Notes under the pieces: model-generated
Database searches by the model: none
Seen by the model: the letters and a program-made list of their open reading frames with translations, nothing else
Told to the model about the DNA's origin: nothing
In this document: positions 16,802 to 61,223 of the stretch, piece by piece
Position numbering within the stretch: the first letter of the stretch is position 1
Layout: the number at the start of each line of letters is the position of its first letter
Assembly (NCBI RefSeq): GCF_933775445.1
Contig: NC_065878.1
Span: 15,015,395-15,079,394, forward strand
DNA length: 64,000 nucleotides
From: Argentina anserina
Taxonomy: Eukaryota; Streptophyta; Magnoliopsida; Rosales; Rosaceae
Reading direction: 5' to 3'
Position numbers and translations under genes: made by a program

Positions 16802-17022
16802 ATGAGAAGAGATTCACACCTTCATAATAAAAGGAGACGCTCGCACCGAGACAAAAGAGCACCAAAGTGGTCTCAACTCCGCACAGAACTCCTAGAGTTG
16901 TACTGTAAAAAGCTTCCCTCAATCTTGGACATCAATCGTTTCAAAGTTGTTTGTTCCCCTTGGAGATCCGTTGCAAAATTATATACATTTGCCTCATATT
17001 ATAGTCTGCCTCAAAATCCATG
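16802..17022 (+). pseudogene. F-box/DUF295 gene, 5' fragment, interrupted by a CACTA element
   Basis: Reads from ATG 16802 as a basic N-terminus, then an F-box: WSQLRTELLELYCKKLPSIL, DINRFKVVCSPWRSVAK, the pattern of plant F-box/DUF295 proteins that supply substrates to SCF ubiquitin ligases. The frame is cut at 17022 where the CACTA element begins. Downstream of the element (18298 on) the same type of gene continues in degenerate form. Confidence 0.7.
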
Positions 17023-17351
17023 CACTACTACACATATGGCCATCAATGGTATTGGAGGCATGACGTTTAAAAAAAAGTCGTTAAAAGACTTTTAATGGCG
17101 TTTTTTTAAAAGAAAACGCCATTAAATTTTCGAATTCATATCTCAAAGCTAAGTTTATGGCATTTTATAAACGCCATTGAAGATCTGAAAATTTAAGTGC
17201 TAATGTTATTTGATGGCGTTTGACAAACGCTATGGTAATAATTTAAGTGCACGGCGTTTGTGAATGTCATAAATATCAAATATGAGGCGAGTCTTTTATT
17301 TTCACTTTTGCGTTTTTCATTGTAAGGATGAATGGAAAAAAATCAATCACC

Positions 17352-17354
<3 letters not shown>

Positions 17355-17442
<88 letters not shown>
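17355..17442. repeat. (CT)n microsatellite inside the CACTA element
   Basis: About 88 bp of uninterrupted TC repeat. It lies upstream of the captured enolase exon and may come from that gene's 5' leader. Confidence 0.95.
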
Positions 17443-17445
<3 letters not shown>

Positions 17446-17788
17446 AAACACTAAAATCCTTTATAATCCCGAACCCCAAATCTTTAGAACCCAAAGAATC
17501 TCTCCGCTTTGTCTTTTTCTCGATCGCCTTCCTATTGTTCCACCCAAAGAATCCCAAACCCAAACCGATAAAGCTGATTCGTTCGCCTGTAAGCCCTAGA
17601 TTCAATTTCGCTTCTTTTTGTAACTGAGTTCCGATTGCTTCAAATTGTCTGCACTATATCTTCCAAAAACAAAAAAAGAATATCCCCTCTCTCACTTAAG
17701 CATCTTCATTTCTCACTCCTTAATCCAAAAATTAGGGTCTAGCTCTTCTGCAATTTCATATTGAAAAATCAACAAGAAAGAAGAAAAA

Positions 17789-18135
17789 ATATTAGTCTAA
17801 GAGCATCTCAATAATCACCTTTTCTCCCGTAAAATCGAAGACGTTGTCAATGTTGCCGTCTACACCAAAGCCCCCGATCTCGTCCTCTTCATCGTAATTC
17901 TCTCTCTCTCTCTCTTTTGCTTTCTTTGAATTTTGGTTCAAGTCTTGTGTGTGATTTGTGTTGTTAAATGAATAATCTGCAGTCGAATCATATGAAGAAG
18001 GCGATTCTGTCAGTGTTAACCAATGTCAAAGCTCTGCAAATCCTCGATAGCGAACGAGTCCCTACTGTTCAAGTTGATCTTCACACTAACAAAGGAGTCT
18101 TCCGAGCTTCAACTCCCAGCTCTGATCTTTTCTAT
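17789..18135 (+). pseudogene. Captured 5' fragment of cytosolic enolase 3 (ENO3/ENOC-type)
   Basis: Two exons and an intron of an enolase gene sit inside the CACTA element. Exon 1 (17789-17893) reads EHLNNHLFSRKIEDVVNVAV then LVLFI, matching the N-terminal extension specific to plant enolase 3. Exon 2 (17983 to about 18135) reads NHMKKAILSVLTNVKALQIL, then VDLHTNKGVFRAS, the start of the enolase fold. The 89-bp intron keeps GT and AG sites. The expected start codon position is ATA (17789-17791) and the expected fourth codon is TAA (17798-17800), both fitting C-to-T-type decay or mutation; the DSRGNPTVEV motif is degraded to DSERVPTVQV. It cannot encode enolase. Capture of a host gene fragment is inferred. 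Confidence 0.8.
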
Positions 18136-18297
18136 GGTATTTTAAAAATTCCATGAATCAATCTTTAAAAGCACGACGCTGGTTTCTACGACGTCTAAGC
18201 ATGCCATCCAAAAGCATCATGGAATGGTTTTCACGGCGTTTTCCAAATTTATTGATGTGGGTTCCTCGTGTGGGTCTGGTTCTGTGTAGTAGTGATG

Positions 18298-18653
18298 TAT
18301 CATGTTTCAAATTTATTGAGCTCACAAGAGACAATACACATGCCTCTTTGATCCTATAGAGAAGACATTTTACAAAATCAAAGAATGTGTTTAAATATTT
18401 TCCTAATGCACACTGTGTGGGTTCCTCATATGGGTGGCCGGTCCTTTATAACGGTAGAGGTGGCCAGGGATATCGGCCAGGGATATTCGCTTTCAAGAGT
18501 TTGTAGTCAACTCCCAGATATTGGATCTTTTAGATCTGGAACTTGTAAAGCTATTGTTTCATCTAATCCGTCTAGCAACAAGAACATTCTTCTTGCTGTT
18601 TTACTTCTAGGTATACTTTTTTTTATTTGCTTTGAAAGGAATATATTCAAAGA
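18298..18653 (+). pseudogene. F-box/DUF295 gene, middle fragment, after the CACTA insertion
   Basis: Continues the gene broken at 17022. Recognisable but frame-shifted pieces include YTCLFDPIEKTFYKIKE, CVGSSYGWPVL and IVSSNPSSNKNILLAVLLLG, all typical of the DUF295 beta-propeller-like region. Several stops and frame changes show decay beyond the insertion. It is cut again at 18663 by a second element. Confidence 0.55.
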
Positions 18654-19540: not shown

Positions 19541-20121
19541 TGTAGAATGATAATCTGAAAACCAATAATAGAATGTAGACACGTGTACAAATAAAATGTG
19601 ATTTATTAAATATCAAGCGCGGGGTTACAATCTTTGTGAACTACTCTGATTCTATCTCCGTATATGACTTGGCTCAAGGGTGACGTACACTTGATCTTGA
19701 GAATTTGAGTTTGATTTGGATTTGGATTTGATGAAGAACGAGCGATTTGGCCGCTTGATGATTCTTCGTGGACTTGAGTTTGGATTTGAGTTTGATGAAG
19801 AACGAGCGATTTAACCGCTTGATGATTCTTCGTGGACTTGAGTTTGGATTTGGGTTTGATGAAGAACGAGCGATTTAGCCGCTTGATGATTCTTCGTGGA
19901 CTTGATGATCTTCGTGGACTTGAGAGACTTCAAGATTTGTCGAAAGTGATCTTGCTCAAGTGATTTTCTCTCTTCTTCTCCAGTCTAGAAATCCTCAATC
20001 TCTTTATGTTGAAATGGGTATTTATAGTGTCAAAGTTTCTATTTTGTAGAATATTTTAATGACACTAAAAATAATAAATTCTTTAATTATATAATTAAAG
20101 CAATATTATTTTCTTATTAAT
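19541..20121 (-). repeat. 3' LTR of the gypsy element, truncated
   Basis: Matches 23935-24433 of the other LTR. It carries three copies of a 64-bp unit (about 19727-19920) where the other LTR has two, plus an 18-bp partial copy; these 82 bp account for the whole length difference of the shared part. Confidence 0.9.
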
Positions 20122-23934: not shown

Positions 23935-24731
23935 TGTAGAACAATAATCTGAAAACTAATAAGAGAATGCAGACACGTGTACAAATAAAATGTGATTTAT
24001 TGAATATCAACCGCGGGGTTACAATCTTTGTGAACTCCTCTGATTCTATCTCCGTATATGACTTGGCTCAAGGGTGACATGCACTTGATCTTGAGAATTT
24101 AAGTTTGATTTGGATTTGGATTTGATGAAGAACGAGCGATTTGGCCGCTTGATGATTCTTCGTGGACTTGAGTTTGGATTTGGGTTTGATGAAGAACGAG
24201 CGATTTAGCCGCTTGATGATTCTTCGTGGACTTGAGAGACTTCAGGATTTGTCGAGAGTGATCTTGCTCAAGTGATTTTCTCTCTTCTTCTCCAGTCTAG
24301 AAATCCTTCATCTCTTTATGTTGAAAGGGGTATTTATAGTGTCAAAGTTTCTATTTTATAGAATATTTTAATGACACTAAAAATAATAAATTCTTTAATT
24401 GTATAATTAAAGAAATATTATTTTCTTATTAATTTTAAATTAGTTATCCTCATAACTAAATTAATCAGAAAATAATTGACTTAATTATAACCGTTAAGGA
24501 ATTTATTAATTTAATTAAATGTCCGATTACCATTTCGAATCGTAAATGACATTCAATTTTCGGAATCACGTAGTTTTGATTATGATCATCCGTTTATGTG
24601 CTGACACGAGTTTTATTCAGATCCGCACTAACTTTGTTGACTTTTGGCCATGTGTGCAATTTTGTCGGGCTCTTGGTCGATTTAATTTTTTAACGAAGAT
24701 AATTTACCTCATTAAATTTCATGTGTCTACA
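23935..24731 (-). repeat. 5' LTR of the gypsy element, complete
   Basis: 797 bp, TG...CA on the minus strand. Contains a minus-strand TATA box (TATAAATA, complement of 24331-24338) and two copies of the 64-bp unit at about 24121-24235. Confidence 0.9.
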
Positions 24732-61139: not shown

Positions 61140-61223
61140 GTCAGGATGGCCGAGTGGTCTAAGGCGCCAGACTCAAGTTCTGGTCTTCGAGAGAGGGCGT
61201 GGGTTCAAATCCCACTTCTGACA
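61140..61223 (+). tRNA. tRNA-Leu(CAA)
   Basis: 84-nt class II tRNA. Acceptor GTCAGGA pairs with TTCTGAC (one G-U), discriminator A at 61223. A box TGGCCGAGTGG, anticodon stem CCAGA/TCTGG with loop CTCAAGT (anticodon CAA), long variable arm, and B box GGTTCAAATCC. No intron. Followed by TTTT at 61225-61228, a plausible RNA polymerase III terminator. Confidence 0.96.

Follow-up and report, generated by a model that had tools for sequence, protein, structure and literature searches.

CACTA transposons carrying pieces of host genes have been described in Arabidopsis, maize and wheat (PMC8903248, PMC4290129, PMC13317346), and the sequence-only reading was correct in treating such captures as a known class. 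The published model of Pack-CACTA formation is the fusion of two neighbouring elements together with the DNA lying between them (PMC8903248, PMC13317346). For the Rosaceae, the available text of a Prunus review (PMC13359793) covers MULEs that capture gene fragments as well as CACTA insertions, but not CACTA capture. Among the papers searched, mostly non-subscription ones, no report of a Pack-CACTA in the Rosaceae and none of a CACTA-captured enolase were found. The main text of two Argentina genome papers contains neither 'CACTA' nor 'enolase'.

The element considered here lies in a window of 64,000 nucleotides (the whole stretch of DNA analysed) on contig C7 of the silverweed, Argentina anserina. 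The genome searches covered 236,821,716 bases in 146 contigs. Judging by its sequence, the element is very probably a Pack-CACTA, that is, a non-autonomous CACTA (En/Spm-type) element with DNA of the host enolase 3 gene as the parent of its interior.

Structure of the element and its insertion site

The element is non-autonomous and occupies 1272 bp (window 17023-18294); its parts are listed in Table 1. The perfect 12-bp inverted ends and ATG target duplications claimed earlier were found at 17020-17034 and 18283-18297, and the subterminal GGCGTTT repeats are equally real. Exact GGCGTTT on both strands occurs six times in the element, five times in the left 300 bp and once in the right 165 bp, with no copy in the interior and three in the remaining window.

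Table 1. Features of the element and of the host DNA on either side of it.
Feature	Window position	Strand	Remarks
Putative F-box-like gene relic, left half (host DNA)	16829..17022	+	joined flanks 72% to C2:25652278-25652638
Target-site duplication, left copy ATG	17020..17022	.	one ATG at each related empty site
Left terminal inverted repeat CACTACTACACA	17023..17034	+	12 bp, perfect
Left subterminal region, GGCGTTT-type repeats	17023..17307	+	61-74% identity with 13 relatives over the first 270 bp
(TC)44 microsatellite	17355..17442	+	short TC tract at the same place in L018
Element-own leader, including the last part of the TC tract	17414..17622	+	common to other copies; L018 82% over 90 bp
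Captured enolase 3 segment, element 602-1107	17624..18129	+	match to C3 gene
Captured enolase 3 upstream leader	17624..17788	+	86.2% identical, aligned bases
Captured exon 1, 35 codons, ATA start, TAA at codon 4	17789..17893	+	82.9% identical
Captured intron 1, GT and AG kept	17894..17982	+	92.1% identical, aligned bases; 32 nt shorter than in parent
Captured exon 2, 5' 147 nt	17983..18129	+	90.5% identical
TCTT common to enolase 3 and element right end, capture junction	18126..18129	+	possible microhomology
Right subterminal region	18130..18294	+	nearest L011 and L014, 82 and 81% over 131 bp
Right terminal inverted repeat	18283..18294	-	exact reverse complement of CACTACTACACA
Target-site duplication, right copy ATG	18295..18297	.	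equals left ATG; one ATG at related empty sites
Putative F-box-like gene relic, right half (host DNA)	18298..18453	+	same joined-flank match

Inverted pairs spaced by 100-5000 bp were counted in the window and in 60 order-1 resamples of it. Within the window, this is the only perfect 12-bp pair that starts with CACTA and has equal 3-bp flanks, and 0 of the 60 resamples gave one. Without the CACTA condition, two such pairs were present in the window versus a resample mean of 0.67. The 12-mer alone is less striking: with up to one mismatch allowed, the window has two occurrences, a count also reached in 4 of 100 shuffles.

Assignment to the CACTA (En/Spm) superfamily rests on the CACTA-starting ends, the 3-bp duplication, the subterminal repeats and a Transposase_21-encoding relative. 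Placement among Pack-CACTA elements rests on the absence of a transposase of its own, on host gene DNA with an identifiable parent and on interiors that vary within the family. The longest stop-to-stop frames in the element (113 and 108 aa) span the TC tract and the leader. The four frames of the transposase-bearing relative, L047, gave no match in the element and 12 relatives by tblastn at E 0.01. The leader (element 392-522) was considered as a second captured gene and rejected, since all nine of its genome matches adjoin left-end matches; it is taken as the element's own.

When the two flanks are joined, they match two places on contig C2 through the junction, the one given in Table 1 and C2:25655989-25656311 (69%). 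Both related empty sites (L048, L049) read AATCC-ATG-host and hold neither the element ends nor the enolase fragment, while the window reads AATCC-ATG-element-ATG at the same point. Two paralogues with one ATG and no element thus demonstrate the insertion. The open frame of the first C2 paralogue contains an F-box (PF12937, 6.7e-6; PF00646, 1.5e-5). Frames of the window's own flanks had no Pfam match, the left frame tested extending 70 nt into the element, and the interrupted sequence is therefore named an F-box-like relic from DNA homology only. The element appears to have landed in the relic of such a gene.

Near the right end, a 20-mer (18256-18275) agrees at 18 of 20 positions with host DNA at 18416-18435, 160 bp downstream and outside the element; this level was reached by 1 of 500 resampled flanks. 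Beside the 20-mer is an 18-bp insertion that is absent from L011, L014 and L020. The similarity could reflect templated filler from the repair of a break in place, or chance.

Elsewhere in the window, two direct-repeat pairs at 19541-20121 and 23935-24433 are 96% identical and about 4.3-4.4 kb apart, and copies of a 64-bp tandem repeat occur at both places. They resemble the terminal repeats expected in an LTR-type element. A tRNA-Leu (CAA) gene is located at 61140-61223.

The captured segment and its parent gene

The genome search with the element gave 57 matches, from 40 of 43 candidates scored. Besides the self-match, the only one covering the enolase part is G000:C3:30129586-30130104 (79% with gaps), and the other 55 miss this part. 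The parent and the element are identical at 427 of 486 aligned bases (K2P 0.135). The parent's contribution comprises 146 bp upstream of the ATG, the 105 nt of exon 1, intron 1 (parental length 121 nt, element 89 nt) and the first 147 nt of exon 2, which is about 155 nt long in the parent according to the predicted splice site. The protein predicted from the C3 gene, used as a query without its last exon, is 100% identical to P0001, annotated as cytosolic enolase 3 of Argentina anserina. The Enolase_N remnant in the captured exon 2 scores 28.4 bits, under the 35-bit cut-off.

The same-genome search proposed by the sequence-only reading thus led to an enolase 3 gene on C3, whose DNA matches the segment and whose protein is identical to a named cytosolic enolase 3; the parentage it had suggested is upheld. 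Its statement that the first two exons were captured applies to exon 1 but not to the complete exon 2, and the upstream leader was taken as well. The N-terminal extension, supposed to be unique to plant enolase 3, proved to be more widespread: PDB chain 7n6g_6G, which we take to be from Chlamydomonas, matches residues 1-148 of the 149-residue query.

One copy of the enolase capture was found in the genome. Because intron 1 and the upstream leader are present, the segment was copied from genomic DNA and not from mRNA, which rules out a retrocopy. Other enolases were also considered as the parent. The Enolase_N search of the genome returned seven matches, distributed over four places. The genes on C5 and C3 exceed the cut-off and C6:10428668-10429830 falls short of it; C7:21765557 passes only together with its neighbours and carries a TAG. 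Only the C3 gene among these four places matches the captured DNA, so that the others were rejected. Among six plants aligned, the motif GVFRAS is confined to Argentina and the element, and Rosa sericea has GMFRAS; this single residue weakly suggests that the capture postdates the split from Rosa.

The family and its transposase-bearing relative

The exact 12-mer end is found at 130 sites in the genome versus 67 for the reversed control. Among the 100 sites listed, neighbours less than 10 kb from each other were convergent in 14 cases, with spacings of 2.1-5.4 kb, and divergent in none. Nineteen family loci (L010-L028) were picked among the best genome matches to the element. Twelve of them could be delimited with perfect 3-bp duplications, and five gave no pair; L020 and L022, with pairs containing one mismatch, were left out of the twelve. 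A looser search of the seven undelimited loci yielded one doubtful pair, in L026. Other elements with the same 12-bp ends, which the sequence-only reading had proposed to look for, are therefore present.

The transposase-bearing relative (L047:154-6464, 6311 bp) encodes Transposase_21 (1e-88), DUF4218 and DUF4216 and has a GAA/GAA duplication. Its right end differs from the 12-mer at two positions. Its left end is 76% identical to that of the element over 103 bp (E 4e-13). Blastn found no significant match between the right end of the element and L047 (57% in the alignment), and the right ends of relatives do match that of L047, for example L010 with 74% over 215 bp. The genome thus contains a lineage that encodes a transposase and has ends related to those of the element. 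Two further Transposase_21 matches, at G000:C3:30109032-30114476, are 15-21 kb away from the enolase 3 gene.

The family appears to include another lineage with a gene-like fragment. A 102-aa frame of L010, present also in L013 and L015, has a weak match to PhoLip_ATPase_C (E 0.0014, 18.8 bits, under the cut-off). Its best match outside the family is C4:23333700-23333921 (61% aa), where the frame is clearly that of a phospholipid ATPase (6.6e-35). The fragment in these three loci can accordingly be described as phospholipid-ATPase-like.

The interiors of L011, L023, L025 and L027 match scattered places in the genome besides family copies. The interior proper of L018 matched one 57-bp place and nothing else, its further matches belonging to the right-end region. 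Positions 12-60 and 59-155 of the L011 interior, adjacent in the query, are 466 bp apart at G000:C2:514022-514633, owing either to a deletion during capture or to a lost intron. A reading of an 88-aa frame in L011 as Kinesin-4 found no support and was dropped; the frame matches its own two family copies and C5:25460926-25461171 (67%, three stops). The L027 interior (query 1-2072 of 2121, in pieces) is 92-97% identical to G000:C3:23232014-23234777, with no exact family end within 0.9 Mb of this place among all C3 sites listed. It is possibly a large capture or another copy.

Origin of the element

The parent gene, the same-ended copies, the transposase-bearing relative and the related empty sites together support the Pack-CACTA interpretation given in the sequence-only reading. 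As to how the enolase DNA was acquired, the junctions and the affinity of the two ends are informative. At the left junction, similarity to L018 extends to about position 600 of the element, and the enolase DNA begins at 602. At the right junction, similarity to L011 starts at 1104 and that to enolase ends at 1107; L011, L014 and L020 go on past this point with repeats absent from the element.

Trees of the ends were built for 14 elements (the present one, 12 relatives and L047) from repeat-rich alignments 280 and 177 columns long. The left-end tree joins the element with L018 (85/83, below the tool's star). The right-end tree joins it with L011 (99/98) within a group of four that includes L018 and L023 (93/97); since L018 belongs to this group, the right end of the element is not far from L018. 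Seven of ten AU tests had p < 0.05, these p-values being optimistic because the clades were chosen after the identity table. For the left end, rejection applied to the element with L011 (0.0015), the element with L011, L018 and L023 (0.0026) and L011+L018+L023 (0.0020), and not to L011+L023 (0.076), L018+L023 (0.096) or L027+L010+L013+L015 (0.051). For the right end, the rejected clades were the element with L017 and L021 (0.0016), with L010, L013 and L015 (0.0008) and with L018 (0.016), as well as L011+L027+L047 (2e-11). Ends have thus been exchanged within the family, L011 itself being discordant. The different relatives of the two ends fit the published fusion model without proving it.

On balance, it is slightly more probable than not that the start of enolase 3 is enclosed by 600 bp of L018-like ancestry on the left and 165 bp of L011-like ancestry on the right. 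Two family members would have bracketed the 5' part of enolase 3 by their insertion, and the loss of their facing ends would have left one hybrid unit, a course of events that we favour slightly. A transposase made elsewhere could then have mobilised the hybrid, which would have left chromosome 3 and entered chromosome 7, producing the 3-bp ATG duplication. The hybrid would subsequently have been silenced and have decayed, coding for nothing useful.

Alternatively, the enolase DNA could have been gained without any fusion, by break or nick repair templated on the unlinked enolase 3 gene through gap filling or template switching. This is a possibility of some substance, though not the expected one. 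The 4-bp TCTT overlap at the right junction speaks for it, but a single overlap of this length is weak. No exact family end was found within 4 Mb of enolase 3 when all C3 sites were listed, so that no trace of neighbouring insertions is seen. The several unlinked places matched by the interiors of four other copies also agree with such repair, and PMC13317346 allows that unlinked genes may be captured by a mechanism yet to be discovered. However, the different nearest relatives of the two ends are explained directly by fusion and not by repair.

Decay and possible activity of the fragment

The start codon of the captured exon 1 has changed from ATG to ATA and codon 4 from CAG to TAA, so the decay claimed earlier is evident against the parent. 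With the parent enolase 3 as the sole reference for the assumed direction of change, C>T or G>A account for 33 of the 59 substitutions and reverse transitions for 11. The former affect 33 of 214 C/G sites versus 11 of 272 A/T sites for the latter (p 2e-5). By context, C-to-T changes occurred at 9 of 44 CG, 12 of 45 CHG and 12 of 125 CHH sites; CG and CHG together exceed CHH (21/89 versus 12/125, p 0.007). An excess of this kind in CG and CHG is expected from cytosine methylation in a silenced plant transposon, and the element would thus have been methylated and silenced.

The captured exons have a dN/dS of 0.67 against the parent, which may be read as a neutral copy compared with a constrained parent. 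No indels were found in 252 exonic nt versus eight events in 234 aligned non-coding nt (p 0.003), the events (six in the leader, two in the intron) being counted by eye on the alignment. This contrast could hint at constraint. It is given little weight because about half of the eight events fall within A-runs or the TC tract, both of which are prone to indels.

The fragment might nevertheless be active: a sense transcript starting from the left end could be spliced and give rise to chimeric RNA or small RNAs acting on enolase 3. The retained GT and AG splice sites, the exons free of indels and two stretches identical to the parent are in agreement with this, and on wheat chromosome 3B 26% (38) of the CACTA-captured genes are transcribed (PMC4290129). 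The lost start codon, the TAA at codon 4, the dN/dS value, close to that expected of a neutral copy, and the methylation-type decay point the other way. Likewise, only 29 of 486 21-mers are identical to the parent when pure TC runs are left out, all of them within 17966-18007 and 18085-18111, and the exact common stretches of at least 21 nt, counted in the same way, are one of 42 nt and one of 27 nt. Activity is accordingly judged quite unlikely, and the captured fragment is, with high probability, inert. Still more doubtful is the reading that combines a hybrid element, a family naturally recording end-swaps and gene captures that happened repeatedly, and a splice-competent enolase start that still feeds chimeric or small RNAs matching enolase 3, since the joint claim can be no more probable than the activity that it includes.

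An inverted repeat that merely happens to surround a dispersed enolase 3 pseudogene of the ordinary kind, with no transposon capture, can be dismissed as exceedingly improbable: although one copy was found, the fragment alone would resemble a segmental duplication and the 12-mer alone is not rare, the ends are common to many family copies, the duplication is perfect, element-own DNA lies between each end and the fragment, and the related empty sites have neither ends nor fragment.

Comparison with known systems

The silverweed element documents a gene capture in the Rosaceae by its parent, its family, related empty sites, both junctions and the affinity of both ends. Taken alone, it leaves existing knowledge of enolase 3 and of CACTA biology unchanged, and it is a good case on which to test whether capture proceeds by fusion.

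The closest described systems are the Arabidopsis Pack-CACTA elements (PMC8903248, PMC13317346), which are likewise non-autonomous, have CACTA ends, contain captured genic DNA and show a structure compatible with fusion. Their ends are CACTACAA (PMC8903248), whereas those of the silverweed element are CACTACTACACA; the host and the captured gene are also different, and one copy of the capture was found in silverweed. Pack-MULEs and other Pack-TYPE elements (PMC8903248) are similar in being non-autonomous and in holding host coding DNA between matching ends, but they belong to other superfamilies and have other ends. The captures on wheat chromosome 3B (PMC4290129) likewise consist of gene fragments within CACTA elements, and more than half of these captures are classed as pseudogenes. 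The wheat study comprises 140 events in 11 families with expression data, whereas in silverweed one event has been followed in detail.
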